Part shown: positions 3,848 through 56,318 of the stretch, in pieces
How the letters are laid out: every line of letters starts with the position of its first letter
How positions within the stretch are numbered: the stretch's first letter is position 1
Origin: Gilliamella sp. ESL0441
GTDB taxonomy: Bacteria; Pseudomonadota; Gammaproteobacteria; Enterobacterales; Orbaceae
Assembly (NCBI RefSeq): GCF_019469185.1
Contig: NZ_CP048264.1
Location: 1,364,001-1,428,000, forward strand
DNA length: 64,000 nucleotides
Direction of reading: 5' to 3'
Notes under the pieces: generated by a model
The model's input: the letters and a program-made list of their open reading frames with translations, nothing else
The model's database searches: none
Told to the model about the DNA's origin: nothing
Position numbers and translations under genes: made by a program

Positions 3848-3850
3848 TCT

Positions 3851-5176
3851 ATGACAACACAATCCGCCGTTAATAAACGTTATCGCTTTAACGATTATTT
3901 AGCATTGGTTATCCCTTTTATTATTTCAACTATCACAACCCCATTATTGGGCGTGGTTGATACTGCGTTGGTCGGTCATCTACCCAATCCTGCTTTTATT
4001 GCTGGCATTGCCGTTGGTGCGGTGATCTTTAATACCATTTATTGGTTATTTGGTTTTTTACGTGTGAGTACCACCGGATTTGCGGCACAAGCATTAGATG
4101 ATCCTCTATTACTGCGTTCTTCGTTAATTCGCCCCCTGTTTATTGCGATTGTTTTAGGCATTTTATTTATTGTTTTTCAGCAATTTATTTTTGGTGCTTC
4201 AATGCAAATCATCAAACCTAATGAAGAAGTTAGGCATTATGCAGATATCTATTTTTCGATCCTAATTTGGGGAGCTCCGTTTGTACTGATTAACTATGTG
4301 CTGGTTGGTTGGTTAATGGGGATGTCCAAAATAAAAGCCGTGCTGTTTTTGCAAGTGTTGATTAATTTACTCAATATTATTATGGCGGTCATTTTTGTTT
4401 GGGGCTTTCATTGGGATATTCAAGGCGTGGCATTTGCAACACTCAGTGCGCAAGTGATTTGTACGTTGTTAGGGATCGGGTTTATTGGTCGCTATTTACC
4501 CCAATCACAACAAAAAACGGATTTGAAATCGATCCTTTCTTGGCAGTCATTGAAAGGGGTAATTTTAGTTAATACTAATTTAATGATTCGAACTATTTGC
4601 CTGCTAGTTGTAACGAATCATTTTATTTCGATTGGTTCAAGTTTTAGTACTGAAGTATTGGCGGCCAATGCGGTACTGTTTCAAATCCATTACTTAATGG
4701 CGTATTTATTTGATGGTTTTGCTAATGCGTCAAGTGTATTTAGTGGTAAAGCTAAAGGCACCCAAAATATGGCGTTATACCAACAAACCTTGCGTTGGTC
4801 ACTGCAAGCGTGTGTGATTTGTCCGGTGATATTAATTGCAATCTGGTTTGCTTTTGACACCACGATAATCCGATTATTAACCAATCAAAATGACATTATT
4901 AATCTTTGTCTACAATACCATTATTGGTTAGTTATTTTTCCGGTTGTGGTTGCTGGTGGATTGATCTATTACGGGGTGTTTTCAGGCATCAGTTATACAT
5001 CTTCTATTCGTGATTCCATGATCCTTGCCCTTTTACTTTGGTTAATCGCTCAATCTATTTTTGTACCAATATGGGGCAATAACGGTTTGTGGTTTTCCTA
5101 TATTTTATTTAGTTTAGGACGCACACTCTTTTTAGTGATTTGGATTAATCGATCGAAACAATATCTTATGCGTTGA
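3851..5176 (+). CDS. MATE family efflux transporter, DinF-like
   Basis: A 441-residue multidrug and toxic compound extrusion protein with about 12 hydrophobic segments. The N-terminal motif PLLGVVDTALVGHL and the following AIFNTIYW/FGFLR region are typical of the DinF branch. MATE proteins export cations or drugs using Na+ or H+ gradients; the substrate cannot be read from the sequence. It starts four bases after nikE and so is probably cotranscribed, an unusual partner for a nickel importer. Confidence 0.85.
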   Translation: MTTQSAVNKRYRFNDYLALVIPFIISTITTPLLGVVDTALVGHLPNPAFIAGIAVGAVIFNTIYWLFGFLRVSTTGFAAQALDDPLLLRSSLIRPLFIAIVLGILFIVFQQFIFGASMQIIKPNEEVRHYADIYFSILIWGAPFVLINYVLVGWLMGMSKIKAVLFLQVLINLLNIIMAVIFVWGFHWDIQGVAFATLSAQVICTLLGIGFIGRYLPQSQQKTDLKSILSWQSLKGVILVNTNLMIRTICLLVVTNHFISIGSSFSTEVLAANAVLFQIHYLMAYLFDGFANASSVFSGKAKGTQNMALYQQTLRWSLQACVICPVILIAIWFAFDTTIIRLLTNQNDIINLCLQYHYWLVIFPVVVAGGLIYYGVFSGISYTSSIRDSMILALLLWLIAQSIFVPIWGNNGLWFSYILFSLGRTLFLVIWINRSKQYLMR

Positions 5177-42775: not shown

Positions 42776-43333
42776 ATGAAAAACACTAATAATGAAAACA
42801 ATTTTGAGTACTATTTTATGGAAAGCCAAGATGATGAAGCTTACCCGATGTTTGACATATGTGAAGAACATGATGATATCCTTGAAGCCGAGTTAGGCGA
42901 TCCATTGCCTCGCCGTCCGGTTTTAGCAGATTATCACACTGGTGCTAAAGATTTTGTTAGTAAAAGAGTCGCTGAAGCAATGATGGCTATGAACATGGAA
43001 GGTGTGCGTATCGTTCCTCTAAAACTTTCAGATCGTAAAGGTGGATATATTGAAGATTATTACTGTGTTTTCGTTGATGATAATACTTATGAAGCACTAG
43101 ATAAAGAAAATTCAGAATATGAATATGATGAAGATTGCGAGCTTTATTTTTTCGATAAAATTGTTTTAGACAAGGATGCTTTAAGAAAGATACCATTAAA
43201 TAGACGTTTAGGATGGAGATTACTTGAAGAACCAGGTATGTATTTATACCATGAATCTGTCGTTGAAAAAATCAAAGAATTGAACCCCACTGGCGTGAGA
43301 TTTATTCATTTAGATGATTATGAAGGTATCTAA
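42776..43333 (+). CDS. Imm11/DUF1629-like immunity protein
   Basis: A 185-residue acidic, cytoplasmic protein. The C-terminal half (FFDKIVLDKDALRK, RRLGWRLLEEPGMYLYHES, LNPTGVRFIHLDDYEG) follows the DUF1629 (imm_11) pattern of polymorphic-toxin immunity proteins. A GGGATAAGG leader precedes the ATG. No intact toxin gene is next to it; the convergent gene is another immunity-type protein. The assignment to the exact family is from memory of its pattern. Confidence 0.62.
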   Translation: MKNTNNENNFEYYFMESQDDEAYPMFDICEEHDDILEAELGDPLPRRPVLADYHTGAKDFVSKRVAEAMMAMNMEGVRIVPLKLSDRKGGYIEDYYCVFVDDNTYEALDKENSEYEYDEDCELYFFDKIVLDKDALRKIPLNRRLGWRLLEEPGMYLYHESVVEKIKELNPTGVRFIHLDDYEGI

Positions 43334-43399
43334 TAAGTCAATTTATTAACCTCTGAAAGATTTATGAATTTCGCTTTAATAACTTAACGCTTAAAATAG

Positions 43400-43427
43400 A
43401 AAATCCAACTTAAATGAGTTGGATTTT
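43400..43427. terminator. Bidirectional terminator between immunity genes
   Basis: AAAATCCAACT (43400-43410) and AGTTGGATTTT (43417-43427) form an 11-bp stem with A and T flanks on both sides, between convergent genes. Confidence 0.72.
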
Positions 43428-43440
43428 CTTAATATTTTAT

Positions 43441-43905
43441 CTATTCATCTATATTTTCTTCTAAATTATTTAAAAAATTAGAAAACCCATTTATTAAAAA
43501 CCTTATACTTCCATTTGATTCATTAACTTCTCCTAAATCTAGATAAATAATGTAAATATCTTCAGTCTCTACATTCATACAAAATAAATTTCCACCCCAA
43601 TCCATAGCAAAAGGCAGCATATTTGTTGGTATAATATTTTTTTCTATAGATAAAATTTGGTAGATATCTTCGATTCTAAGATCATCTGAATCTGTCTTAT
43701 ACTTAATTGATCTAAAACGGCTAATTTCCACAAAAGTTTCATATTCTTCTATGTAAAAATAGGTCTTTGAAGAAATTCCACCATTATATTTAAAATAATG
43801 ATCTTTAAAGTCTTTTGGAAAGTTAAAATTTATTTGATTTTCAACTTCTTGAATATCTTCAATTGTTAATTTTATAGCACATTCATTAAACATAGGAATA
43901 ATCAT
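43441..43905 (-). CDS. SMI1/KNR4-family immunity protein
   Basis: A 154-residue protein with the SMI1/KNR4 (SUKH) hallmarks: EVENQINFNFPKDFKDHYFKYNGG at the front, LPFAMDWGGNLFCMNV in the middle and a short helical tail. SUKH proteins are common immunity factors against Rhs/CDI nuclease toxins. Translation may start at Met5 (MFNEC). It follows immediately after a decayed frame (TAA directly before its ATG) that may be the tail of its lost toxin. Confidence 0.8.
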   Translation of the reverse strand: MIIPMFNECAIKLTIEDIQEVENQINFNFPKDFKDHYFKYNGGISSKTYFYIEEYETFVEISRFRSIKYKTDSDDLRIEDIYQILSIEKNIIPTNMLPFAMDWGGNLFCMNVETEDIYIIYLDLGEVNESNGSIRFLINGFSNFLNNLEENIDE

Positions 43906-44040
43906 TTAATTACACTCTATTTTTGCTTTTAGCTCTTTGTTGAAGAGCTTTTTCTCTATACTCCTATCATAATCATTTTTTAGCTTCAAAAGTATCAAAT
44001 TCAACTCCAATATGATAAAGCCCGTTTTAGAATATTCAGA
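43906..44040 (-). pseudogene. Possible remnant of a toxin C-terminus
   Basis: On the minus strand two adjoining frames read NGLYHIGVEFDTFEAKK and then NDYDRSIEKKLFNKELKAK before a TAA that directly abuts the SMI1-type gene. The frame change around 43978 suggests a broken gene. The position just upstream of an immunity gene suits a toxin tail, but I do not recognise the domain. Confidence 0.35.
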
Positions 44041-44112
44041 ACTTAGAGACAGAATCAGCCATTACCTTTAGTGGATAAATACACAAAATTTAGGATAGTA
44101 ATTTTGAATTAG

Positions 44113-44342
44113 TTATTTAATAATTCGTATATCCACTTTCTTTTTTAAGCTATCTAGTAAAGTGTAATCAGTAATTTTTTTGCACTTTTCAATCAGTAAA
44201 CCATTCAATTTTTTGAGTTATTTTATGGCTTCTATATTTTCTAAAGCGTTGTTCCGAACCAAAGATAAGCTATTCAAAGGGAGTTTTTCTATTCCTGCTA
44301 ACGTTTCAATTTTTGAGCTATAGATATGAAGTTTTTGTAACT
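44113..44342 (-). pseudogene. Fragment of a leucine-rich-repeat protein
   Basis: Minus-strand translation gives LRR-like text (KLQKLHIYSSKIETLAGIEK, then LPLNSLSLVRNNALENI), a stop at 44218-44220, and in the same frame more repeats (LKKLNGLLIEKCKKITDYTL) ending at TAA 44113. The frame is closed upstream, where it runs into the primase 3' end. It is a truncated remnant with an internal stop, probably from the same foreign DNA as the primase. Confidence 0.6.
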
Positions 44343-45601
44343 TCTTCGCCTACAATACCGCTTTGCGCTATCAGGGTGTTGATGTTTTCAAGGCTTAAAT
44401 GATTGCTTTTTGTTGGTTTGTTTTCAGTTGTTTTTTCTTTTTCAGATGAAACAAAAAAATCACTTGCTTTTGGCTGTAATGCTGGCGTATCAATACTTAC
44501 AGATTTTCTTTCCTGTAGTAGTTTTATAAAAATGGTTTCATCTTCGTGCAGTTGCAGCGTTTCATTTACATCTTTATTAGGCAGCTCTACTGTAGTATAT
44601 GTTATGTTGGGTAACAAGGTTTGTAATGTTTTACAATGCTTTGCTGTCGCTTGTTTGCCTGCTGCATCATTGTCGAGCATAAAAATGATTTCATCCAGTT
44701 GCTGTAATTGGCTCACCGCTTCGGTGTGTTCGTCCGTTAAGCCGTTGGTTCCGTACAGGGCAAGGACTTCGACAAGCTCAGTCTGACAAGCATTTTGCAC
44801 AGTTTCTTTTATCTGTATTAGCGAAGCTGCATCTATAATGCTTTCAGTCAGTATCAGCTTGGTAGTTTCCGGTTTGGGATAATTCGGATATAAGCCCCTG
44901 CGGTTCTTTAAGTAAAAATGTTTGCTCTCGCTGTTATTGTGGATGCTCCGTCCGTAAAGACTTACAGGGTTTCCGGTTTTGTCCCGGAGCATAAAGGTAA
45001 GGCAGTGCTTTGCAAATACTTTATAGCTTACGTTTTCGCCTGTTTGGTTATTGGTTCTTTGCAATGGTTGCAGCATCCCTATGTTTACGCATTGTGCTAT
45101 CAGGCTTTGATCTTTTCTGCTGCTGTGGTGGAACTGCCCGCTATTGAAGCCGATAAAGCCTTTCAGCTTTTCTATGTTCAAGGCTCTTTGCTTGCAGTAC
45201 TGCTTCGCCGGTTCGCTGTGCCATACCGATGAGGCAAAGGTTTTTTCTAAGTGCTGTAAGATGCTTGGGTCTGTTGGTGGTTCTTCTTTTGGTGCTGTTC
45301 CTTGCTTTACATTATTCAATATTAACCCGCTATTTATCATTGTTTTTGCTTTTTCTATGGCTTCGTGCTTGGTGCAGCTTTCTTTGTACAGGATAAAATC
45401 TATTACGTCTATTGCTTTGCCGTGTGTTTTGCAATTGCTACTAAAACAATATACTGTACCTGTCTTTTCATACACCTGCATACTGGGCGTTTTGTCGTTA
45501 TGGAACGGACAGTTTAATCTTTGGTTCTTATCCGTTCTCAACCCGTAATGTGCCAGTACTGCCGTTATGCTTAAACCCTGTCTTATCGCTGATATGTCCA
45601 T
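44318..45601 (-). CDS. CHC2 zinc-finger/Toprim primase, Bacteroidetes type
   Basis: A 427-residue DnaG-like protein. The CHC2 zinc finger has Cys31, His34, Cys52 and Cys57 (CPFHNDKTPSMQV, YCFSSNC). The Toprim part has LTESIIDAASL and FMLDNDAAGKQA. This form, without the helicase-binding C-terminus of housekeeping DnaG, is what I recall from mobile elements of Bacteroidetes. A nine-residue insert (ACQTELVEV) lies in the Toprim region, encoded by a dispersed repeat. The last codons use LRR-remnant DNA out of frame, so the native 3' end was lost. G+C is visibly higher than its neighbours. Confidence 0.78.
   Translation of the reverse strand: MDISAIRQGLSITAVLAHYGLRTDKNQRLNCPFHNDKTPSMQVYEKTGTVYCFSSNCKTHGKAIDVIDFILYKESCTKHEAIEKAKTMINSGLILNNVKQGTAPKEEPPTDPSILQHLEKTFASSVWHSEPAKQYCKQRALNIEKLKGFIGFNSGQFHHSSRKDQSLIAQCVNIGMLQPLQRTNNQTGENVSYKVFAKHCLTFMLRDKTGNPVSLYGRSIHNNSESKHFYLKNRRGLYPNYPKPETTKLILTESIIDAASLIQIKETVQNACQTELVEVLALYGTNGLTDEHTEAVSQLQQLDEIIFMLDNDAAGKQATAKHCKTLQTLLPNITYTTVELPNKDVNETLQLHEDETIFIKLLQERKSVSIDTPALQPKASDFFVSSEKEKTTENKPTKSNHLSLENINTLIAQSGIVGEEVTKTSYL
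44765..44791. repeat. Short dispersed-repeat copy inside the primase gene
   Basis: CTTCGACAAGCTCAGTCTGA and flanks. The core CTTCGACAAGCTCAG is, as I recall, a widely dispersed short repeat in Bacteroidetes and some other bacteria. Its length keeps the primase frame open and adds about nine residues. It occurs once in this window. Confidence 0.6.
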
Positions 45602-45631
45602 TGGAAAATTATTTTAAAAATATTTTTTAGA

Positions 45632-45699
45632 CCGTTTACGGCTCAAAGATACTCTATTCGGATTTATCAACAAAATTTATACGGCTTTTTTAGTCCGTA
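45632..45699. promoter_or_regulatory. Inverted repeats between primase and XRE genes
   Basis: CCGT-TT-ACGG at 45632-45641 and TACGG (45680-45684)/CCGTA (45695-45699) share the ACGG half-site. They sit in the 165-base divergent region, where an XRE regulator would bind to control both genes. Confidence 0.5.
45644..45674 (-). promoter_or_regulatory. Bacteroidetes-type promoter of the primase gene
   Basis: On the minus strand TTTG (45671-45674) is followed after exactly 19 bases by TATCTTTG (45644-45651), matching the Bacteroidetes -33/-7 consensus TTTG and TAnnTTTG. It is 43-73 bases upstream of the primase ATG. Confidence 0.65.
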
Positions 45700-45708
45700 A
45701 AAGAGTTT

Positions 45709-45716
45709 TATATTTG
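45709..45716 (+). promoter_or_regulatory. Bacteroidetes-type -7 element of the XRE gene
   Basis: TATATTTG fits TAnnTTTG, 51 bases before the ATG at 45767. No clear TTTG lies at the right distance upstream, only a T run, so it is weaker support than the primase promoter. Confidence 0.5.
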
Positions 45717-45766
45717 TACTATTAAGTTAAATCAGGAGTTTTATAACCCTTTTAAGTGTTTTTGTT

Positions 45767-46107
45767 ATGGATAGTTTCGGTAAAAGAGTGGCTGCATTAC
45801 GCAAAGAAAGATGATACAGGACGAGCTGGCTAAGCTCCTCAATACTTCTATCTCGGTAATAGGCAGGTATGAACATGACGAGATGATACCGGGTATCGAA
45901 GTGGCTAAAAAAATTGCAGGTTTCTTAAATACTACGGTGGGTTATCTGCTGGGAGAAACGGACAAAGCTGACCTGTTTAAAGACCCCGTAATGCTGCAAC
46001 GGCTGGCGGAACTGGACAATATGCAAAGCGAAGATAAAAACCATATCCTGCACGTGCTGGACGGTTTTATAAAATCTGTAAAACTTAAAAATATCGCTGC
46101 GCTGTAA
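45767..46107 (+). pseudogene. XRE-family regulator, frameshifted
   Basis: ATG at 45767 encodes MDSFGKRVAALRKER and then meets TGA at 45812. The rest of the HTH and linker (MIQDELAKLLNTSISVIGRY, then HDEMIPGIEVAKKIAGFLNT) continues from 45811 in the next frame to 46107. Joined, it is a typical Bacteroidetes repressor of about 115 residues with a C-terminal helical tail. A one-base loss around 45810 explains it. The second part could be translated alone but lacks helix 1. Confidence 0.8.
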
Positions 46108-46111
46108 AATA

Positions 46112-46140
46112 TTAAAGCCACTCTTTTTGAGTGGCTTTAA
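46112..46140. terminator. Bidirectional terminator
   Basis: TTAAAGCCACTC (46112-46123) and GAGTGGCTTTAA (46129-46140), 12-bp perfect stem with loop TTTTT, between the XRE remnant and the convergent immunity-type gene. Confidence 0.75.
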
Positions 46141-46143
46141 TTG

Positions 46144-46671
46144 TTATTCAATAATAGGGCGAATTGGAACAACTCCGCCATTATTATATAATTTATCCAA
46201 ATAATTTTTCACTTCATCAGACCAATAATACTTGGCGAAAGTCTTGTTTAGTAATGTATACCGACTGTCTTCAGTGTGCATACCATAATTAAAATGTTTT
46301 TTAATTTCTTTTTGTAAAATAGAACCATAATGCTTAGCATTTGGACTACGGTTAGGATACCATAAAAATGAAGTATTTGTTATCTTAACTTCATTCTTTG
46401 TCCAAAAGTTTGTCATATAAATAAAGTCGTTTTTGTCATCAACAAGTGGACGATGATTTAGTAATTTTATTTTTGCTTCATAATCTTCCTTGGTACCAAT
46501 ATTGATAAGGATATTACTATCAACAAAATCCAACATACTGATACTACTTGATACAACTATACCACTTTTCTCAAAGTTTTTATCATTAAAAAAGACAAGG
46601 TTATTATTTTCTAAAAAATTATTTACAAATTCAATTATGCATTTTCTGGATGCAACTATATTTAGTTCCAT
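46144..46671 (-). CDS. Putative immunity protein of the first Rhs tip
   Basis: Start chosen at ATG 46671, which overlaps the stop of the upstream Rhs tip (TAATG); three more codons are open upstream. The 175-residue product has no signal and no family I recognise (contains YMTNFWTKNEVKIT and FLWYPNRSPNAKHYGSILQK). Its tight coupling to a toxin-bearing Rhs end is the only clue and marks it as cognate immunity protein. Confidence 0.6.
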   Translation of the reverse strand: MELNIVASRKCIIEFVNNFLENNNLVFFNDKNFEKSGIVVSSSISMLDFVDSNILINIGTKEDYEAKIKLLNHRPLVDDKNDFIYMTNFWTKNEVKITNTSFLWYPNRSPNAKHYGSILQKEIKKHFNYGMHTEDSRYTLLNKTFAKYYWSDEVKNYLDKLYNNGGVVPIRPIIE

Positions 46672-47390
46672 TAGTGACAACTTGTTTTTGGTTTCGGCTT
46701 CTTATTTGTTTCTGGATGAGTATAGGAGCGGAAATGCACCCTTTCAGGAACACCATTGGCGTGTCTAATTTTATTCAAATCCTGCATAGCTAATATCTCT
46801 CTGGTAACAGGCTTTCCTTTTGCATTAGTCTTTCCTACATTACCCCAATGTGTTTTACCGTCAGCATCTTGCCAAACAATATCAGGACGTCTTCCTGATT
46901 TATGCCCTCCAGGAGTTTCAAATAATTTTTCTTTTTCGTATCCACCTCCGTATATAATCGTACCTCCATCGGATATTATTTCATCTGCCCAGGATTTGAT
47001 TGTTTGATTATGAGGTCCTTTTCCTCCCGTTTTAGGTCCACGTTTTGCAAGCCCGAACGGGTCTATCCACGCATTCGTGTCATGGACGTAGCCGTAGAGC
47101 TGTATGCCTCCGTGTAATCCAATCGGGTCTTTGCTTATATAAGTTCCTGTATTACTGTCGTAATATCGGAAGCGGTTATAATAAAGCCCGTCTAGTTCCT
47201 TATCTTCGTACTGCCCCAGTTGCCTGAACGGAATAAACGACTTATTGTTAAATAAATTTTCCCGTATTCTGCCATAGATGTCAAATTCTACCTGCCAAAC
47301 CAGCTCACCTTTATCATCATAGACCTGAACCGGTCTGCCCAAATAATCCTAAACAATCGAGTAGGACTTACCCTCGCATAGCTTTGCAGT
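46671..47390 (-). pseudogene. Orphan Rhs tip 1 with a nuclease-like toxin domain
   Basis: From ATG 47342 the frame gives 223 residues: the end of an Rhs core (LGRPVQVYDDKG, FDIYGRIREN, LGQYEDKELDGLYYNRFRYY), the hyperconserved DPIGL...WIDPFGLA junction, then a toxin tip with SGRRPDIVWQDADGKTHWGNV and GKPVTREILAMQDL. The Rhs frame continues upstream to about 47390 but contains a TAG in place of the Ser codon present in copy 2. No full Rhs gene exists here, so this is a displaced tip. The tip may be a PD-(D/E)XK-type nuclease, from RPDI and a following acidic pattern only. Confidence 0.72.
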
Positions 47391-47570
47391 AGAAAGATAG
47401 CTTTACACATCTTAATTTTTAAAACTGCGAATTAAAAACAGATCGAAAACTCTGAAAAAACGAAAAAAGAAGCTAAACTGCCCAAATACAAATTGATAGT
47501 GTGTAAAAATGTGGAAACTCAGAACAGTAAAGAGATTTAGTGTAATTGTTAATAACTTTTTATTTTGGGG
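47046..47570 (-). repeat. Rhs-tip repeat, copy 1
   Basis: The Rhs 3' region and roughly 180 bases of non-coding DNA upstream of it align by eye with 48738-49290. Shared landmarks upstream of the Rhs frame (plus strand) include AACAG.TCGAAAA, TCAGAACAGT and TGTAATTGT. Divergence is large enough that the duplication is not recent. Confidence 0.7.
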
Positions 47571-47662
47571 GTTTTTGACAGCTAAAAACGGACAAGAAAC
47601 CAGATTTTAGAAAACAATTTTTTAAATGCGTGGTTTAGCCATACCTTTTTTGCCCCTTGTTC

Positions 47663-47713
47663 TTCCGCTTTGGAGCGGAAAGAGATAAAAAAACCGCTTC
47701 GATTGAAGCGGTT
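47663..47713 (-). terminator. Tandem hairpin terminator after the DUF4304-like gene
   Basis: AACCGCTTC (47692-47700) with GAAGCGGTT (47705-47713), followed on the minus strand by TTTTTTT. A second hairpin TTCCGCT/AGCGGAA at 47663-47680 lies just beyond. It is the best terminator in the island. Confidence 0.8.
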
Positions 47714-47720
47714 CTTAATA

Positions 47721-48360
47721 TTAAGCATTTAAATTATTCAGAACATTCTTATACCGTTCTCTATATGCTTCTTCCTCTAAAAAATATTTATTTGCAACCT
47801 TTTTTGCATTTTCGGTATCGTTTAGAATAGAGTACATTGCTACTGCAAGAAGAGCAACTACATCATTGCTAATTGAAAAAAAATATAACTCATTATTTTC
47901 AATAATCTTTCAGTACTTCTTGAATTTTTCCTCTCTTATCAAGAAATGGTATTATCTTTTCTATGATTAGAGGCTTGATTTCTGTTTCAATAATTTTATT
48001 CATTTCTTCAATAGAAAACGGTCGCCAGCTAATAGCATTTGAACCAACAATAAGCCCTGCATCAACATTTACAACTGTGTCTACATTGTCAAACTTATTA
48101 TTAGAACCTTTTAATTTGGTCGTTACACTATTAATTTCGTTTGAATCAAAGCGTATCATAATATTTAGATGCCCAATACTTTTGTCATCTTGATATTTAG
48201 AGGGCGTAAAATAGAATAATATGCTTTGTTCAAAATCATCTTTTTTTCTTTGGAACTTCAAAGCCCCTTTTTTCCATTTGAATCCTAAATTAACAAGTTT
48301 CACTACAATACTACTCTCTATTGTTTCTTGTAATAGCGTCTTTAACTCTTTAGTGTTCAT
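47721..48360 (-). pseudogene. DUF4304-like immunity gene, C-terminus frameshifted
   Basis: The main frame 47899-48360 encodes 153 residues resembling DUF4304 proteins (LVNLGFKWKKGALKFQRKKD, HLNIMIRFDSNEIN). After its TGA, the next frame runs on for about 60 well-composed residues (SISNDVVALLAVAMYSILND, then KKVANKYFLEEEAYRERY) to TAA at 47721, right before a terminator. One base lost near 47905 would explain this; the 153-residue part could still fold. The ATG overlaps the toxin-tip stop (TAATG). Confidence 0.6.
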
Positions 48361-49085
48361 TATTTACATCCTGTTTTTCTAATTGTTATTTTTTCTTGAA
48401 CTTCTCTTCCTTTAAATTTGCCTACACCTTTTGCAGGTGTTGCTTTGCTTACCTCGTTGTCAAAAATTCTTTGTGCTTTTGTTTTGGATGCTGTGTTTGA
48501 TTTAACTTCTACTCCGACAACTGTGTCCCGTCAGGTTTTCTAAAAACTAAATCATATCGTCTTAATTGTCCGCTTGAATTTCTTACTGACAATTCATCCC
48601 CTAAATGTATCCAACCTTTATTAGATGATAAGTCTGTATGAACGGCATCAACTGCCCCCCTGCCCAGAAATTCCCTATCCTTGCGGAGATGCAAATTTTC
48701 CATTCGAGGTAAGCCAACCGTTATTCCATTCGATACCGCTCAATCCAAAAGGGTCTATCCAAGCGCTTGTATCGTGAACATAAGCGTAAAAATTCGGGTT
48801 ATTCCCCTCCAGTTTTATGGGATCTTGGCTTATATAAGTTCCCGTATTACTATCGTTATACCTAAACCGGTTATAATAAAGCCCCGTTTCAACATCCTAA
48901 TACTGCCCAAGTAGCCTGAGCGGAATAAACGACTTATTGTTAAATAAATTTTCCCGTATTCTGCCATAAATATCAAATTCCACCTCTTAAATCAGCTTAC
49001 CTTTATCATCCATAGGGCTGAGCCGGTCTGCCCAAATAATCCGATACAATTGAGTAGGACTTGACTTCCCATAGTTTAGCTGTGG
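48360..49085 (-). pseudogene. Orphan Rhs tip 2 with a broken PD-(D/E)XK toxin
   Basis: Minus-strand reading gives TAKLWEVKSYSIVSDYLGRP, then degenerate Rhs core with several stops and shifts, the WIDPFGLS junction near 48750, and a tip containing VDAVHTDLSSNKGW, RRYDLVFRKPDGTQ. A frameshift near 48518 (TAG follows) breaks it; the next frame continues VVGVEVKSNTASK to a TAA at 48360-48362. Asp in YDLVF and Glu-Val-Lys in GVEVK are the classic nuclease core. The stop overlaps the immunity start. Confidence 0.72.
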
Positions 49086-49290
49086 GAAGAAAGCTTCATA
49101 CATATAAATTTTAAAATTGTGAACTAAAAACAGCTCGAAAAACTTTGAAAAAACAAAAACTGCTAACCGCATAAAATACGTAAAAAGCCCATTCTCAAAG
49201 TACCTAATGTAAGTTGATAGAGTGAAAAAAGGTGAAAATTCAGAACAGTTAATGAATTTTGTGTAATTGTGGATTTTTTTTTATTTTGAG
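48738..49290 (-). repeat. Rhs-tip repeat, copy 2
   Basis: Diverged duplicate of 47046-47570, including the stretch upstream of the Rhs frame. This copy keeps the Ser codon (SYSIVSDYLG) lost in copy 1 but has more stops elsewhere. Confidence 0.7.
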
Positions 49291-49344
49291 TAATTTTAAA
49301 AATTAAAAATTCAATAAAAACATAATGTTGATAAACATCCTTAC

Positions 49345-49944
49345 TTATATTTTCTCGTAAATTGTTCGTTCTTGTGGAGTAATGTCAATGCTATCACTAA
49401 ATTGTAATCCTTTCAAATTGGCATTAAATAATGCTTTTTTTATTCTTTCACTTACGACTATTATACGAGGCGACTCTTTACAAAGAGTAACATCAATGTT
49501 TGATTCTTTCGTAAAAATATTATCTTTTAATTTCATATAATAAAACATATATTTTGGATTATTGACATCAAAATTCATAATGCTGTACTCGCTTTTTTCA
49601 ATATCTACACAAGGTGTTTTATTCGGGACATTTAATGCAAAAAAACCTTCTATCTTTTCATTTTCACAATATAGCTCCACATCAAAAAACTGAAGAGTAT
49701 TTGTATTGGCTTCTAAGACTTCTTTTAAAAGTTTATTTACAAGTTTAGGACCTGATGATTCTAATATTAAGGCAGATTTAACTTTATTTAAATTAGATTT
49801 TTTAGGGATACTAAAAAACAATGGTAATTCTTTTTCAGGGAAAAATCGTCCTTTTAAAAACTCTAAAAAATCTGTCGAAATATCATTTTCATAAATAACC
49901 CAACCATATGTATTCTTGGTAGTATTTATAATATATCCTTTCAT
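49345..49944 (-). CDS. Imm11/DUF1629-like immunity protein
   Basis: A 199-residue protein whose C-terminal half (FYYMKLKDNIFTKES, PRIIVVSERIKKALFNANLK, GLQFSDS) follows the DUF1629 layout also seen in the 42776-43333 gene, though the sequences differ widely. Its upstream toxin is absent: about 30 bases before the ATG the sequence changes to what looks like the end of the Mu-like prophage. Family assignment is by pattern only. Confidence 0.55.
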   Translation of the reverse strand: MKGYIINTTKNTYGWVIYENDISTDFLEFLKGRFFPEKELPLFFSIPKKSNLNKVKSALILESSGPKLVNKLLKEVLEANTNTLQFFDVELYCENEKIEGFFALNVPNKTPCVDIEKSEYSIMNFDVNNPKYMFYYMKLKDNIFTKESNIDVTLCKESPRIIVVSERIKKALFNANLKGLQFSDSIDITPQERTIYEKI

Positions 49945-50162
49945 AAAATCATCCCCGGGAATAATGGATTACATCATTTAAATATATTCGTTTTATGTCA
50001 TTGGCACATATAAGGTTAAATGTAATCGAGTCTTTAGCCTATTTGAAATAGAACATGATAAATAATAACAGAATGATGAGATAAATGGGATATAACAAAA
50101 TAAAAGGGGAAATAATGAAATTGTTTTTTGAAAAAGTGTTACAAAATATGAAATAAAAAATT

Positions 50163-50195
50163 GCCTAAAAAATTTTGCTCTAAAATTAATTAGGC
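50163..50195 (-). terminator. Candidate terminator of the prophage early operon
   Basis: GCCTAA (50163-50168) and TTAGGC (50190-50195) with an AT-rich loop; on the minus strand AATTTTTTATTTC follows. It overlaps the mor stop codon. Confidence 0.5.
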
Positions 50196-50552
50196 GTCAT
50201 TAAAATCAAACAGTGTTGGTTGCTTTTCTTTTATCATTCGTTTATGAACTCTGTCAATTACTTTCCTGATACCACGTTCAGTCATATTATATTTTTGGCT
50301 TAGTTCTGCATAGTTATTACCTTTAAATGCATCATAGATTTGCAAGTCACGTTGGTTAAGTTTGAAGATATAATCACGCGGAAAAGTGAAGTTTTGACCT
50401 CCAAATAGTTCTGAAATTGTATTTGCAATGCTATCACCTAACTGTGCTGCAATATCTTCAGGTAAACCGTAATCCATCGCATCGTTAGCTACAGATAATG
50501 ATACATGTGTTAGTAATTCATGACGTTTAATAGACATTGCAGACTTAGTCAT
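50190..50552 (-). CDS. mor: Mor-family transcription activator
   Basis: A 120-residue protein with the Mor/C fold: an N-terminal dimerisation part (GLPEDIAAQLGDSIANTISELFGG) and C-terminal HTH (YNMTERGIRKVIDRVHKRM). In Mu, Mor turns on the middle promoter. It is the last gene of the leftward early operon, and its targets should lie in the rightward half of this prophage. Confidence 0.87.
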   Translation of the reverse strand: MTKSAMSIKRHELLTHVSLSVANDAMDYGLPEDIAAQLGDSIANTISELFGGQNFTFPRDYIFKLNQRDLQIYDAFKGNNYAELSQKYNMTERGIRKVIDRVHKRMIKEKQPTLFDFNDA

Positions 50553-50555
50553 AAT

Positions 50556-51062
50556 TTACGCTCCTGTTTTCTTCTTATACCAATCTAGTGCACCAGGTAT
50601 ATTTTTTTCTAATTTATTAAAATCGATACCGGCTCTATACATCTGTTCAAAATACTCTTCATTACTGCTACGAGCGGGTTTGTCTTCTCCTTTATGTTCA
50701 ACGTACGCAAATAAATGTTTAGTAGAATTATAAACTGACTTTAGATAATTATGATTTTTAAACGGTTTGTATTCACCCAATGCACGTTTTGCGTGAATAT
50801 TGTTAACGGTTTCTCTTAATGCGTGTGCTAGATGTCTACTTGGTTGAAAAAGTTGTAGTACCTCATTTATTAAATTTACTGCTCGTGAGTTACTTAAATT
50901 TGATTTTTGAGTACGAAATAAACCAATATAGGCAATCATTGGTTTAGCACAACCATAGTTTAAATTACTTACTAATATAAGTAGTTCCCTGCCAGAATCA
51001 TCCTCTACCAATGCTTCTAAATTAATTTCATTATGACAAATTGGGCAACGTGTTAATTTCAT
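50556..51062 (-). CDS. Phage protein with N-terminal zinc finger
   Basis: A 168-residue protein beginning MKLTRCPICHNEINLEAL, a CxxC zinc half-site, followed by a helical region containing RTQKSNLSNSRAVNLINEVL. Such proteins accompany GemA and Mor in Mu-like phages; no function known to me. It ends three bases before mor. Confidence 0.7.
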   Translation of the reverse strand: MKLTRCPICHNEINLEALVEDDSGRELLILVSNLNYGCAKPMIAYIGLFRTQKSNLSNSRAVNLINEVLQLFQPSRHLAHALRETVNNIHAKRALGEYKPFKNHNYLKSVYNSTKHLFAYVEHKGEDKPARSSNEEYFEQMYRAGIDFNKLEKNIPGALDWYKKKTGA

Positions 51063-51072
51063 GCTTCTTCCT

Positions 51073-51474
51073 TTATATGCGTGATTGCCAACTTTTTAGG
51101 CTTTCAATTACAACCATTGCTTGTTTTTGAGTAAGCCAATTCATCACTTCAACACCAGTAATACGTTTTACATAAGAATTGATAGCTTTTTCGGAGCGGT
51201 TTTTTACTTCACCTGCATCAGCTAGTTCTAGCCATAATGAGCGTATTTTTTTATGAACTGGTTCTGTAGCAGTTATCTTCCCCGTTTTTTTTGATGATTT
51301 AACTTTAAAGCCTTTTGCTTTAAGGTTATTTAGGATTTTTTCCAGTTCCCAAACTGTCATATCCTTGGTACTAGTTTTTTTAGTTATAGTCAGTAATAGA
51401 TAACGATAGGTATCGTCATCCAGATTAAGTTGAGATTTTGCAATATGAATCAGCTTGATGTATTTAGATTTCAT
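51073..51474 (-). CDS. gemA: GemA-like regulatory protein (DUF1018)
   Basis: A 133-residue protein with the GemA pattern: IKLIHIAKSQLNLDDDTYRY, followed by WELEKILNNLKAKGFK and a C-terminal GVEVMNWLTQKQAMVVIESLK. Mu GemA alters host gene expression and supercoiling. Its start abuts the DUF2786 stop. Confidence 0.85.
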   Translation of the reverse strand: MKSKYIKLIHIAKSQLNLDDDTYRYLLLTITKKTSTKDMTVWELEKILNNLKAKGFKVKSSKKTGKITATEPVHKKIRSLWLELADAGEVKNRSEKAINSYVKRITGVEVMNWLTQKQAMVVIESLKSWQSRI

Positions 51475-52164
51475 CTATTTAATCCCTATTAATGATGGAG
51501 AATAACCTGAACTTGATACACCATGATTCAATTGAGCGGTTTTACCTTGTAAGTAACCAATAAATTGTGAAGAGTCCGAACCATTACACTTTTTAGAATC
51601 TCTAACCTTAGCTGGTGATAAATCTTTGGTCTTTCTATATTCAGCTAATAGATTTAGTTCCTCATCAGTCATTGCAAAATCTTCAATTAATTGATAAACA
51701 CCATTAACCCAGCCAACACAGAACGCATCAGCTCGGTTGACTTTAGTGGTTTTTTTACAATTACCATTTTGTTGCGATAAGAATTCTTTTCGAGCTTTAA
51801 CTAATTGAACACTTAAAACGTCAAAGGTATAAGCTGCTAATTGTGGTCGTTCCCTAAGTCCATAAAATGAAACCTTTCTTTTACTGTTTTCCCAAGTAAA
51901 GTAAGTTCGAACACCAAATGCGCTTGAAATGATACTTACTAATATTGAAAAATATCTTGGTGGTTTTTCTGCATTTGAAGGGGCATGTTTTGACACATGT
52001 TCCTCAATTTTAGATAATTCCACATCTTTATTACTAATATTATGTTTTACCATCAATTTGATGGCTTGATTCATTGCAATAGCAGCTTCGTTGGGATTTG
52101 TTGATTTTGCTAAAGCTAAAAGTTTTTTGATTTTTTCAATATACTTTTCATTATTATTTTTCAT
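51475..52164 (-). CDS. DUF2786 domain phage protein
   Basis: A 229-residue protein. IEKIKKLLALAKSTNPNEAAIAMNQA is the DUF2786 hallmark, followed by an alpha/beta region (YFSILVSIISSAFGVRTYF) and a C-terminal RDSKKCNGSDS segment. Common in Mu-like early operons; function unknown. It overlaps the 67-residue gene upstream by four bases. Confidence 0.8.
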   Translation of the reverse strand: MKNNNEKYIEKIKKLLALAKSTNPNEAAIAMNQAIKLMVKHNISNKDVELSKIEEHVSKHAPSNAEKPPRYFSILVSIISSAFGVRTYFTWENSKRKVSFYGLRERPQLAAYTFDVLSVQLVKARKEFLSQQNGNCKKTTKVNRADAFCVGWVNGVYQLIEDFAMTDEELNLLAEYRKTKDLSPAKVRDSKKCNGSDSSQFIGYLQGKTAQLNHGVSSSGYSPSLIGIK

Positions 52165-52364
52165 AAAAATACCTTAAAAAAACTAACAAAACGCTGTTTT
52201 AATGTTTTAGCTGATTTTAATTTTATATATTCAGCATAAAGTTCATCGTACAGCTTTCCATCAACATAGCCCTGACCAGTTACTTCACGCATAAATGAAT
52301 GTTCATGACTGATTGAAATATAATGGTCGGGCATATAACGTTTTGGGCTAGAGAATTTAGCCAT
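52161..52364 (-). CDS. Small phage protein, 67 residues
   Basis: Short basic protein (MAKFSSPKRYMPDHYISISH...) with a helical C-terminus ending in two Phe-rich turns. It overlaps the gene before it by eight bases and DUF2786 after it by four, so it is a real member of the operon. Family not recognised. Confidence 0.6.
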   Translation of the reverse strand: MAKFSSPKRYMPDHYISISHEHSFMREVTGQGYVDGKLYDELYAEYIKLKSAKTLKQRFVSFFKVFL

Positions 52365-52500
52365 TTGCTAATTCCTCTAGCTCGTCGATGATGCGATCAG
52401 CTTCAAATTCAGATAAACCATACTCTTTACAGTGAACTATAAAATTAGCTGTCTGGCTTAATATAAATTGATGCAAAATATAATAATCTTGTGTTTGCAT
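52357..52500 (-). CDS. Small phage protein, 47 residues
   Basis: ATG at 52500 opens a 47-residue frame (MQTQDYYILHQFILSQTANF, then HCKEYGLSEFEADRIIDELE) that ends in TAA at 52357 overlapping the next ATG. The spacing (two bases after the Gam gene stop) and strand fit the operon. It is acidic and helical, function unknown. Confidence 0.6.
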   Translation of the reverse strand: MQTQDYYILHQFILSQTANFIVHCKEYGLSEFEADRIIDELEELANG

Positions 52501-52502
52501 GC

Positions 52503-53024
52503 TTAGATAACCTCCTGTTCAAATGGGATTATCGCAAAATCCTCTACATCTTTTTTAATGGTAATACCTGGCACATGAGCGACAACGTTTGGTTCGTTTA
52601 AAATAGCTTCTTTATTAACTTCTTCTTTTGTACGAATAAATCGTTCCAGTTTTAGCTTTTTCAGGGTTTCTATAACCGTTTCTAAACCACGAATAACACA
52701 CGATGGGGGGCGATTGCGCCATTGCACTTCACCAGTAACTAAATTGGCTGATTTAACTTTACCATTGTTGGTTAATTCATCACGGTTTGCTTCGCACCAA
52801 ATTTGGATACCTTTTTGAATTTCTGTCGACTTCTTTTTTAATGCTTCAATACTAGATGAATAGCTTCCAGTTATATCAGCAATTTTGTCGTTCATTTCGG
52901 TTTCTAATCGGGTTAATTCACGCTGTATATCGCCTAAATATTTTATTGCTTCTGACGCTTGTTCTTTAGTTTGCACAACATAGATTGATGCGGTAGCTTT
53001 AATACGTTTTTTAGTTTTTATCAT
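52503..53024 (-). CDS. gam: Gam-like host-nuclease inhibitor
   Basis: A 173-residue protein of the Mu Gam family: an N-terminal coiled coil (YLGDIQRELTRLETEMNDKI) followed by KIQKGIQIWCEANR-type text and SANLVTGEVQWRNRPPSC, a typical Gam motif. Gam binds linear DNA ends like Ku and protects phage DNA from exonucleases. Confidence 0.88.
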   Translation of the reverse strand: MIKTKKRIKATASIYVVQTKEQASEAIKYLGDIQRELTRLETEMNDKIADITGSYSSSIEALKKKSTEIQKGIQIWCEANRDELTNNGKVKSANLVTGEVQWRNRPPSCVIRGLETVIETLKKLKLERFIRTKEEVNKEAILNEPNVVAHVPGITIKKDVEDFAIIPFEQEVI

Positions 53025-53035
53025 TTTAATAATCC

Positions 53036-53308
53036 TTAATGTAAACGACTAATATCGCGTTCTTTCCATACAATACGACAACCAGCTAATTCAAATTGAC
53101 CAAACCGATAATAACCTTCATGTCGATAGTATGTCGCTTGCCCTGCGGCTATATATTTATTGCATTTTGGGTGGTGTTCAATTTCAACCGTCGGTCTTGA
53201 AAGTGAATCATGATAAAAACCAATAACTGTCAACTCTTCATTTGATAATGCATTGATTGCTTTATTAACAGCATTTATTCCATTATTGATTACGTGGTTA
53301 TTTTTCAT
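53036..53308 (-). CDS. Phage protein, 90 residues
   Basis: Start at ATG 53308, which overlaps the MuB stop (TAATG); nine further codons upstream lie within MuB. The product begins MKNNHVINNGINAVNKAINAL and has strand-rich later parts with HHPKCNKYIAAGQ. Function unknown. Confidence 0.6.
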   Translation of the reverse strand: MKNNHVINNGINAVNKAINALSNEELTVIGFYHDSLSRPTVEIEHHPKCNKYIAAGQATYYRHEGYYRFGQFELAGCRIVWKERDISRLH

Positions 53309-54540
53309 TACATATCTCCCCGATCTTTGATACATTCAACAATCACTTCACCTGTAACTCTCGGGGCACCTATACGTGCTGCTAGATTTAATGCGTTTGA
53401 TAACAAATTGTTAACAGCTAGTGGATAACATAATGAACGCACTTGCTTTTCACCACGTCGAGTTGATGCAACTCTTAATCGGTTAATGATTTCGTTAAAT
53501 GCAGACGAATCAAATAACGTTGTATAGTCCATATCAACACGTGAAAATTTATGCTTGATATATTCTTCAACTTTAAAATCAAGTGGTTTTAAGTTCACAA
53601 CTTCACAACGCTGAACCACTTCACGAACTTCAGGGTTGTATTCTGATAGTTTTGTTTGTAATTCTGTTTGGCCAATTAAAATAATTGATAGCAGTTTTTT
53701 AAAGCCTTCTTGTAGCTCATAAAAGCGTTTTAAATGCTTAAGCGTATGAATTGATAAACCATGCGCTTCTTCAATAATCATTAAATGTTTACGACCTGAT
53801 AATGCGCTATTTTTAAGTAAAGTATGCATTTGCCTTGCTCGTGCTTCAGCACTGCGTTTTGGTTTTGCTTGTGGATCAATTGCATTGATGATTGCACCAC
53901 TAATATCCATACTTTTTAACGATTTGCCTTTAACCTCGTTATCTTCTAAACCGAGTACATAGGGTTCTATAACGGTAATAGGTTCATGATTAATGTTGAT
54001 CCAATCAATTAAATCATGGCGCAATGTTGATTTACCACTTCCTGATTCGCCAATTACCGCTAGCATTCCGCCATGCTTTGCCGTTTGACGCATTGCTGCA
54101 CGTACATAACGAATATCATCAGAAAGATAAACATCAGCATCCTGTGTCATTTCATCCGTAAATGGATCCCTAGGAATGCGGAAATGTGCCCGTGCATCTC
54201 GATTTATAGTTTGCTTTCGTAGTAACATATAGGCTGACTCCTTTGTTGAATGTTTTTCATTTGAGTCAACTGGCACAGCGTCGTCCGCCAAGATTTCGGC
54301 TGTGTCAGTTTCTTCTTCAAAAATATTTAGTAAATAATCATTGCTTAAACCTAATTTTATTAATGCTTTTTCAATTTTCTGCTCTAGTTCTTCACGTTTA
54401 ATAGAGCGTGGCCAAATATTGTGATTAACGAGCTGGCTAATTACTGCTTGGCTGATTGAATTGCCTTTATAATCAATATGCTTAGCGAGTTGTGCTTGTT
54501 TGATATTGAATTGCGTCATTACGCTTTTTAATTTCAGCAT
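53308..54540 (-). CDS. MuB-like transposition ATPase
   Basis: A 410-residue AAA+ protein: N-terminal HTH-like part (FNIKQAQLAKHIDYKGNSIS), Walker A GESGSGKST at residues 164-172, Walker B LMIIEEAHG and a lid domain. MuB binds target DNA and activates the transposase. It begins on the last base of the MuA stop (TAATG). Slightly longer than Mu B (312) because of its N-terminal extension. Confidence 0.9.
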   Translation of the reverse strand: MLKLKSVMTQFNIKQAQLAKHIDYKGNSISQAVISQLVNHNIWPRSIKREELEQKIEKALIKLGLSNDYLLNIFEEETDTAEILADDAVPVDSNEKHSTKESAYMLLRKQTINRDARAHFRIPRDPFTDEMTQDADVYLSDDIRYVRAAMRQTAKHGGMLAVIGESGSGKSTLRHDLIDWININHEPITVIEPYVLGLEDNEVKGKSLKSMDISGAIINAIDPQAKPKRSAEARARQMHTLLKNSALSGRKHLMIIEEAHGLSIHTLKHLKRFYELQEGFKKLLSIILIGQTELQTKLSEYNPEVREVVQRCEVVNLKPLDFKVEEYIKHKFSRVDMDYTTLFDSSAFNEIINRLRVASTRRGEKQVRSLCYPLAVNNLLSNALNLAARIGAPRVTGEVIVECIKDRGDM

Positions 54541-56318
54541 TATTTAACACTCCTAAACCCTGTCGTACCGTCACCGACTGCAACAGGTGTTGTAAATGTA
54601 CGAATTAGTGAATCTAACGAATCTTCGGGAACACCATCTTGATAACGAGCGGATAGCCACTTATTTTCATCAGTTGTTAATCTGCGACCGATTGAACGAG
54701 TAATACGCATTAAAGCTGCGGTTAGCGTTAATGTTGTGGTAGCAGGCTTTAAATGTTCCGGTGTTTCAATTTCATTGCCTTTTTGTTCAAAGTAAGCAGG
54801 ATGATTAATATCATCTAGATAACTGAGTGTATTGAGCTGACCGCCGAACGGCGCAACTTGTTTTTGCTTCGCTTTTTTGATTTCATCCTCTGTCATGTTT
54901 GGGTATGCCACTTGATCCATCGCTTTCGCTGCTTGTTCAATTTCTGTATCACCTTTAGATTTATATTCCTCACCAATCACAGGTGCATCTAAACGTTGTC
55001 CAAACTTATCAAAATTGCGGTCTGGCTCAACACGATAAATCAGTGCTTCACCGTCATAACGGGGGACTTCAATTTGAATAGCACAATCACCGTAAACTAA
55101 TGAACGCACACTGACTTTATCTTTAACAGCAATACCATCTAAACCTTTTAAACTATAAATAAGCGAACTATCAGCTTGCGGATGTTTGAAACTAATGGTT
55201 AAATCAGCTTTCACTTGTCGCTCTTGCTCACGACTTGCCATTAATGCCTGACAAACTTCTATTGATGGCAATGTGCGTAATTGCTCTGCCGTAATATGTT
55301 GCCAAAGTGATTGACGTGATACGGGTTCTGATAATCCAATACGACGCAAACGTGTATCTTGTCCTGGCAGTCTGTTGGCATTATAGGCTTCAGCCCAATT
55401 CATTGCTGCATGATTTAATTCATCAATACTGCTAACTGGTTGAAACTTCAAACGACTTTCAAATTGTGTTTCGATAATATTATTGGCGTTTTCAACGCCA
55501 CCTTTAGCCCTTGCATTACCTGCTTCGTGTTCTAGATATTTAACTTCTAAATGGTCTAGCAAGTTCTTGATTGCTGATGATGTATTAGCCGAACCTTTAT
55601 CCCAATAAAGCAGTTGTGGTACACCATGAAATAAACGCCCATCTTGCTTACCCCAAGCAAACATTAAAAATTGGAATAATGAGTGTTGGTTTTCGCCTGC
55701 AGCTTCAACGTACCAAGGTATAATCATGCCTGATGCACGGTCATACAAAGTATAACGCCAGACTTTGTATTTAACTTTTGCGTAGTTTCCTAACTTATTT
55801 TTATAAAAATCACGGTCGCGCATAATATGCTGTTTATCTTTCATGTAATAAATTAAGCATAGAGAGGGATCTACTTCGTGGACATGATTAGGATGCAATG
55901 CACGTAATGACTGAACAGGATTTGCCACTTGTTGTGCTTTTACATTCATTTTGCGGTTTCGTAATAACCTAGTAAAATGATTAGTACTTACACCAATTTC
56001 ATAACCATTTTGTTTTGCAATACTTGTTGCTGTTGTTGTAAACATAGTTTGTTTACCATTATCACGCACTGACTCTTTACATATTGCTCCGACCACATTT
56101 AAAGCAATATCAGAAACACTTGTATCACCTTTATCAGCTCTGCATTTCCGATCACTTGACCAACCACAAAACTCTTTTAATTGTCGGTAAATAGTTTGTT
56201 TAGAAATACCTAAAAAGGCTTGAGCTTCACTCATAATAGCGCTTCTTGAACCAAAATCTGTGTTATCTAGCTTAATTGCTAATTCATTTAAATAGTTGCG
56301 AATATTAGGTGATACCAT
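54540..56318 (-). CDS. MuA-like transposase
   Basis: A 592-residue DDE transposase. The catalytic triad reads Asp150 (HEVDPSLC), Asp240 (LYWDKGSANT) and Glu276 (AKGGVENANN), with exactly 35 residues between the last two. An N-terminal HTH (SRSAIMSEAQAFLGISKQTI) and a C-terminal Mu-type domain flank the core. It carries out replicative transposition of the phage. All catalytic residues are present, so the prophage may be active. Confidence 0.93.
   Translation of the reverse strand: MVSPNIRNYLNELAIKLDNTDFGSRSAIMSEAQAFLGISKQTIYRQLKEFCGWSSDRKCRADKGDTSVSDIALNVVGAICKESVRDNGKQTMFTTTATSIAKQNGYEIGVSTNHFTRLLRNRKMNVKAQQVANPVQSLRALHPNHVHEVDPSLCLIYYMKDKQHIMRDRDFYKNKLGNYAKVKYKVWRYTLYDRASGMIIPWYVEAAGENQHSLFQFLMFAWGKQDGRLFHGVPQLLYWDKGSANTSSAIKNLLDHLEVKYLEHEAGNARAKGGVENANNIIETQFESRLKFQPVSSIDELNHAAMNWAEAYNANRLPGQDTRLRRIGLSEPVSRQSLWQHITAEQLRTLPSIEVCQALMASREQERQVKADLTISFKHPQADSSLIYSLKGLDGIAVKDKVSVRSLVYGDCAIQIEVPRYDGEALIYRVEPDRNFDKFGQRLDAPVIGEEYKSKGDTEIEQAAKAMDQVAYPNMTEDEIKKAKQKQVAPFGGQLNTLSYLDDINHPAYFEQKGNEIETPEHLKPATTTLTLTAALMRITRSIGRRLTTDENKWLSARYQDGVPEDSLDSLIRTFTTPVAVGDGTTGFRSVK

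Follow-up and report, generated by a model that had tools for sequence, protein, structure and literature searches.

A decayed cross-phylum relic in a Gilliamella Rhs array and a candidate Bacteroidota family of elements that re-tip Rhs toxins

Results

We analysed a 64,000-nucleotide stretch of the Gilliamella sp. ESL0441 genome (NZ_CP048264.1, positions 1,364,001 to 1,428,000; hereafter the window), which carries a foreign segment at ~44347-47137 made up of the end of an Rhs core, a toxin tip, an immunity gene, a shared terminator, a broken XRE-family regulator gene and a primase gene cut before its ATPase half (Table 1). The genome is a single 2.75-Mb contig (completeness 99.98%, contamination 0.1%), and its topA is 94% identical to that of Gilliamella sp. 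B2838. An earlier note, made from the sequence alone, had singled out the divergent primase and XRE genes (open reading frames, ORFs, 44318-45601 on the minus and 45811-46107 on the plus strand) as a Bacteroidetes fragment ending at 46107. The pair is divergent and foreign, as claimed, but the segment is longer: the toxin tip and the immunity gene, which the note had missed, are parts of the same import, and the two divergent genes belong to an element associated with Rhs.

Table 1. Features of the foreign segment and its native borders (positions within the window).
Feature	Position	Strand	Remarks
Native leucine-rich-repeat immunity-gene tail	44113..44346	-	5' part lost at junction; internal stop
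CHC2/Toprim primase, N-terminal part	44347..45601	-	without ATPase half; longer homologues run past GIVGEE into PF27228/AAA sequence
21-bp sequence TTCGACAAGCTCAGTCTGACA	44768..44788		within the primase gene; in-frame CQTELVEV
Promoter-like TTTG-N19-TATCTTTG	45644..45674	-	5' of the primase gene
TATATTTG box	45709..45716	+	XRE side, -7-like
XRE-family (RstR-like) regulator	45767..46107	+	HTH_3 3.8e-9; longest ORF 45811-46107
Terminator-like hairpin ATTAAAGCCACTC-TTTTT-GAGTGGCTTTAAT	46111..46141	.	between convergent immunity and XRE genes
Putative immunity gene, 175 aa	46144..46671	-	open frame; flanked by tip and XRE gene, the arrangement of Bacteroidota modules
Foreign Rhs-core end (DPIGL...DPFGL) and C-terminal toxin tip	46671..47137	-	ORF 46671-47342 matches Rhs_assc_core (3.1e-17)
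Native Gilliamella Rhs-core fragment	47138..47342	-	first part of ORF 46671-47342; aligns with Rhs cores of its own genome and of other Gilliamella

The limits of the segment were set by comparing positions 43300-50200 with 35 Gilliamella genomes. Native matches cover 44011-44346 and ~47115 to 47713, and between them lie only pieces of 44 and 32 bp and one 77% match, in genome G009, from 47257 down to 47052. Rhs cores of the same genome and of another Gilliamella follow the window to ~47137 and then split from it at the DPIGL codons, and the G009 copy (L090) stays aligned, at lower identity (77% overall), to 47052; we therefore place the foreign segment at ~44347-47137, with an uncertainty of ~85 bp at its right limit. 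Besides the L090 alignment, the tip is represented in the 34 other Gilliamella genomes only by pieces of at most 44 bp, and direct comparison of 44347-47137 with eight Gilliamella loci gave no match at E <= 1e-3. The native left flank (44011-44346) is 83% identical to L087, whose ORF 3299-3964 is the open relative of the truncated immunity gene. As judged from these alignments, both junctions fall inside genes of a native Gilliamella Rhs/immunity array, and the locus has the make-up of an Rhs orphan-tip array, with a core fragment, a tip and an immunity gene apart from any full-length Rhs gene within the loci examined.

The primase ORF contains CHC2 (6e-12) and Toprim_2 (1.8e-12) domains and is cut near 44347, its final ~7 codons coming from native DNA. 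It is not the host DnaG: it scores 111.4 bits with the NCBIfam model TIGR01391, against a cut-off of 283.6, and a separate homologue in the same genome lies at 494598. The 21-bp sequence within the gene seems to add residues to the protein. Its exact match occurs once in the window genome, in none of 34 other Gilliamella genomes and as single copies in 7 of 178 genomes (family of G457), which is not decisive for its use as a donor fingerprint. The XRE frame is broken, the ATG at 45767 meeting a TGA after 15 codons and the homology picking up in another frame at 45811; the RstR family model scores the product at 60.7 bits, under its cut-off of 80. Within the foreign segment, the ORFs of the tip and of the 175-aa immunity protein are uninterrupted. 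A Pfam search for the fold of the tip returned only RHS (0.00085, under its cut-off) and one chance-level match, and a search with the immunity protein returned nine database rows, of which one is its own cluster and one is named (a Helicobacteraceae metagenome-assembled genome, MAG). Perfect stems of at least 7 bp lie between the immunity gene and the XRE gene in 27 of 42 unique homologous flanks vs 10% of shuffles, and the window stem is similar to those of L109, L063 and L117. The shared hairpin links the window immunity gene to the XRE gene as one inherited unit.

The earlier note had also described a Bacteroidetes-type promoter on the primase side and a second box on the XRE side. Both sequences are present, and no TTTG partner lies 17-23 nt before the XRE-side TATATTTG. 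The bare TTTG-type pattern is expected 0.82 times per window and matched at least once in 47 of 100 shuffles, so the match alone is weak. However, TTTG-N17-23-TAnnTTTG occurs on the primase strand in 18 of 44 unique homologous XRE-primase intergenic regions (mononucleotide-shuffle mean, 0.3) and on the XRE strand in 10 of the 44. The position of the putative promoter and its recurrence in homologous modules count for more than the pattern match itself. That the primase is silent cargo in Gilliamella, as the note had supposed, is a plausible conjecture.

The cross-phylum origin holds. Among 295 sampled genomes of its order, the primase was found at E <= 1e-30 only in the window genome, and the close relatives in many gammaproteobacteria that would have spoken for a different origin did not appear. 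Within the genus it is present in 1 of 35 genomes; in 32 others, 27-34% matches fall on frames of 594-601 aa and hence represent the host dnaG level, and two gave no match. The organisms named among the best 120 of 1102 homologues belong, with few exceptions, to Bacteroidota (Sphingobacterium, Flavobacterium, Weeksella, Myroides, Fulvivirga and Chitinophaga, with one Sulfotelmatobacter MAG). The best identity among these 120 is 54%, and it is 56% in samples of the family of G457 and the order of G061; short pieces of ~43 residues reach 60-63%. A close donor was therefore not identified in the genome samples searched. With the closest relatives at ~50-56% identity and the genes decayed, neither a recent transfer nor a shared gut as its setting finds support.

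Related primases were collected by sampling genomes with the primase alone, without selecting for Rhs, in overlapping samples (order of G061, 19 of 395 genomes at E <= 1e-20; family of G457, 29 of 320 at E <= 1e-40; phylum of G060, 6 of 395 at E <= 1e-40). The annotated set comprises 62 primase loci from 38 genomes (37 Bacteroidota and one Chlorobiota MAG); tandem copies are counted and are not independent, some contigs are short, primase ORFs below 250 aa were dropped, and the broken primase gene of L124 is counted twice. Across Bacteroidota, the order is Rhs tip, immunity gene, reverse XRE gene, primase-ATPase and two tyrosine recombinases, with the same layout in three classes. The minus strand of the window reads Rhs tip, immunity gene, reverse XRE gene and primase, as do the two best homologous loci, where recombinase genes follow. 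Among the 43 modules with at least 4 kb upstream, the XRE gene is divergent in 41, and an Rhs core lies upstream on the same strand in 38 and on the opposite strand in none. These core counts rest on a profile from 36 seeds (a stricter motif recovered only 17 of 43), which finds no match in the window or L084-L086; the NCBIfam model recognises the window core. The 36 modules with at least 5 kb downstream carry at least one tyrosine recombinase in 34 cases, at least two in 31 and a further Rhs core in 30. Among the 45 modules that have a core upstream, 25 keep the frame open for at least 150 codons before the core match (15 do not, and five lie at a contig end), and the upstream proteins match DUF6443/RHS in all three cases examined (L056, L060 and L130) and Rhs_assc_core in three of three (L056, L058 and L060).

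Both recombinases of L004 match Phage_integrase (3.4e-38 and 1.6e-17). Scored by alignment (a strict regular expression had given 22 of 48 for the first recombinase, Rec1, and 0 of 44 for the second, Rec2), the catalytic residues of Rec1 (Arg, Lys, His-x-x-Arg, Gly-His and Tyr) are conserved in at least 90% of 32 aligned sequences. Five more stretches were inspected: L129, L130 and L132 have an upstream Rhs core, L131 has an AHH nuclease gene and L133 begins at the primase. In L131 (1-11079) the module stands behind the nuclease gene and a weak Imm11 match, and in L068 (6305-19721) it stands, in tandem, behind a non-Rhs gene; toxin scaffolds other than Rhs may be targeted as well. An unannotated stretch of a plasmid of the betaproteobacterium Caballeronia sp. 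SBC1 (L136, 7001-8122) matches the element primase at 29% in its ATPase half.

Tandem units are frequent, and 13 such arrays, with periods of 6881-9154 bp, were measured for their edges. In eight of these the left edge lies in an Rhs frame; it falls at YKYNGKE or the equivalent motif in L054, L058, L119 and L134 and at GMYDYGAR in L060. In the other five arrays it coincides with the end of the stretch (L108 and L114), lies within or past differing cargo (L121 and L123) or is in a gene that is not Rhs (L068). The right end consists of conserved non-coding sequence. Its profile was built from at most 14 seeds, with five loci removed by hand and 14 of 22 unique right attachment sites (attR) in the consensus (eight left out). 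From 33 unique right flanks, three belong to ordinary Rhs genes and were excluded; among the 30 scored, 19 abut the TAC codon of YKYNGKE, five a GACTACGG site ~30 bp further on, and six abut elsewhere. The flanks of 10 left/right pairs differ up to positions -1 to -7 of the TAC codon; pairs from the same array diverge at +2, +3, +9 and +26 in four of five cases, and that of L107 never diverges. The repeated run exceeds the period, as a direct repeat, by 47 bp in L058, 50 bp in L119, 33 bp in L108 and 18 bp in L117. At the level of assembled sequence, the direct repeats and the fixed insertion site that define an integrative element are thus both in evidence. In L058, the site reads TTGTAC-AACTACAA-GTACAA, with inverted arms around an 8-bp spacer, and therefore fits the expectation for a tyrosine recombinase; the other left attachment sites keep mainly the right arm.

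The backbone stays constant as the cargo changes. In the 34 of 62 modules in which all parts are present, backbones that are 75-85% identical between genomes mostly carry tips that cannot be aligned. Within one locus, the two copies of L121 have backbones that are 100% identical over 4675 bp and tips that align over 16%, and those of L123 have backbones 99.7% identical over 4884 bp and tips aligning over 12%; the tip is duplicated along with the backbone in L058, L060 and L119. Genome G378 bears the same tip (99.7-100%) at distant places (L060, L061 and L062) on backbones that are only 93% identical (L062 vs L060/L061); tips and backbones thus recombine within one genome. Tandem units also occur on plasmids of Aureibacter tunicatorum and Aureispira sp. 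CCB-E (L134 and L135), with the same protein accessions for the immunity, HTH, primase and recombinase genes. These plasmids are annotated with RHS core proteins, HTH proteins, CHC2/toprim primases and integrases (the second recombinase of Aureispira as hypothetical), and no relaxase or transfer genes are annotated in their units, although no systematic scan for them was made.

Queries with the two recombinases gave no match among the window ORFs. Since neither the recombinases nor the right end was found there, the window copy is most likely a relic and not an active element. Arrays native to Gilliamella, composed of fragments of Rhs cores with tips and immunity genes (Imm11, SUKH), occupy 42776-49944 of the window and G000:C1:1453161-1469932 (L085 and L086), and several of the spacers preceding their cores are also repeated. 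Adjoining the window array, 50190-56318 contains weak domain matches to an rve transposase (54540-56318) and an ATPase (53308-54540) and presumably resembles the start of a Mu-like prophage.

Discussion

We conclude that a Bacteroidota family of site-specific integrative elements of ~7-9 kb very probably re-tips Rhs toxins in frame, and that the segment in Gilliamella is what decay has left of one such element after transfer across phyla. Such an element carries the end of an Rhs core and a toxin tip that lacks its own gene start, together with an immunity gene, a divergent gene for a putative XRE repressor, a primase-ATPase presumably serving replication and two tyrosine recombinases. The recombinases would insert it, probably from a circular intermediate, into a resident Rhs core at a conserved codon, mostly the TAC of YKYNGKE; the resident gene would then read in frame into the new tip, the old tip would be displaced downstream as an orphan, and the XRE protein may hold the primase and recombinase genes down. 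The left part of an element (44347-47137) would have been captured across phyla into the native Gilliamella Rhs orphan array, after which the ATPase half of the primase, the recombinases and the right end would have been lost and the XRE gene broken, the tip and the immunity gene remaining open. The same arrangement would result from insertion at a DPIGL site and a single subsequent deletion. The Gilliamella backbone looks dead, and the immunity gene is likely the part kept by selection.

Several observations weigh against this interpretation. The left edges of L117, L118 and L135 lie at other Rhs points, 11 of the 30 right ends abut points other than the TAC codon, the modules of L068 and L131 follow non-Rhs genes, and the Rec2 consensus (31 sequences) is without the first catalytic Arg. 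In the assembled sequences we observed neither circular forms nor excision nor empty/occupied pairs, and the tandem units could stem from unequal crossing-over between Rhs cores. In the samples of 320 (family of G457), 395 (order of G061) and 395 (phylum of G060) genomes, no relative of the window primase exceeds 56% over more than 200 residues. The right end had no nhmmer match in the window or in eight Gilliamella loci, an absence that carries little weight because the profile recovers only 10 of 29 non-seed element loci. Finally, the native/foreign boundary in Gilliamella, at ~47137 or as low as 47052, lies at the DPIGL...DPFGL codons and not at the YKYNGKE site; with this and with no right end found, ordinary recombination between Rhs cores is no less likely a route of entry than the recombinases.

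Such recombination might also account for the family as a whole, with tips moving by homologous Rhs-core and illegitimate recombination and the module hitchhiking. Plain C-terminal displacement of this kind is the known model for Rhs arrays in the available text of two studies (PMC5727410, PMC8125069), and the Gilliamella boundaries fit it, one being in a conserved Rhs-core stretch and the other inside two unrelated genes; displacement may well be the route by which the piece entered Gilliamella. As a general account we consider it unlikely, given that it leaves unexplained why 19 of 30 right ends sit at one codon beside recombinases and why constant machinery accompanies unrelated tips, in one layout, in three Bacteroidota classes. 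That the primase and XRE genes are an unrelated fragment of a small Bacteroidetes plasmid, phage or integrative and conjugative element, brought beside an Rhs tip by chance, is very improbable. The primase family does include many proteins of ~430 aa without the ATPase half (among the best 120 of 1102 listed), and the window primase has distant matches in 48 phage records; yet a same-strand Rhs core was present in 38 of 43 loci sampled by the primase alone, and the terminator is common to the immunity and XRE genes. All 48 phage matches are below 60% identity, those in viral contigs are weak and confined to two loci, and the full-length L121 primase has no match among phage records at E <= 1e-30; a phage origin was accordingly rejected. 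Assembly contamination by Bacteroidetes DNA, which the unusual origin of the pair might suggest, is hardly credible, because the locus lies on one contig of a genome with 0.1% contamination, the junctions are within native genes, and clusters at 90% protein identity include 42 member sequences on three contigs for the primase and 16 on five contigs for the immunity protein.

Beyond site-specific re-tipping itself, we think it likely that these elements represent a new class of mobile element, in which separate lineages would use different conserved Rhs-core codons, insert in frame and swap the tip-immunity cargo on constant machinery. If so, orphan-tip arrays would in part be the footprints of re-tipping elements able to seed tips across phyla, and the Gilliamella relic shows that tip-immunity cargo of this kind does cross them. 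No description of such an element was found in the open-licence literature, as judged by titles and abstract openings. The literature, in its available text, ascribes new Rhs tips to core recombination, and a dedicated element with mapped ends, two recombinases and in-frame insertion makes the question directly testable.

In the available portions of previous reports, an Rhs array comprises one full gene with displaced tips and immunity genes behind it, and the conserved core is the point of change (PMC5727410, PMC8125069, PMC13183296). The loci described here share this plan but differ from arrays formed by core recombination in that an XRE/primase/two-recombinase backbone stands between successive tips and the edges recur. 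Steele et al. noted Rhs-associated integrases in bee-gut Snodgrassella and Gilliamella, proposed that they help transfer and left their role open (PMC5727410). These too are integrase-type genes near Rhs, with no primase, XRE gene or attachment site described in the text available, and the two element recombinases found no match in eight Gilliamella loci. According to the accessible part of the work of Steele and Moran, few Rhs proteins are common to Apibacter and other genera, and most Rhs proteins of Apibacter are probably T9SS-linked (PMC8125069). For Ornithobacterium hominis and Bergeyella cardium, the displacement model is cited and tip sharing independent of Rhs context is reported, which a dedicated element could explain, as far as the available excerpt goes (PMC13183296). 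GInts likewise are site-specific, with several tyrosine recombinases and variable cargo, but are described in the available text as having ginABCD, that is, three integrases and a small protein (PMC5385486). Our modules contain no ginABCD operon and are not assigned to GInts: they have two recombinases with a primase-ATPase and an XRE gene, and insert inside Rhs frames. The rAID systems of Bacteroidales link a tyrosine recombinase to immunity genes of interbacterial toxins, in immunity arrays that are not known to include toxin genes. The elements proposed here resemble them as a Bacteroidota tyrosine recombinase tied to immunity genes, and are set apart from them by the Rhs-core and tip DNA that accompanies those genes, by the primase and by their position within the Rhs gene itself.

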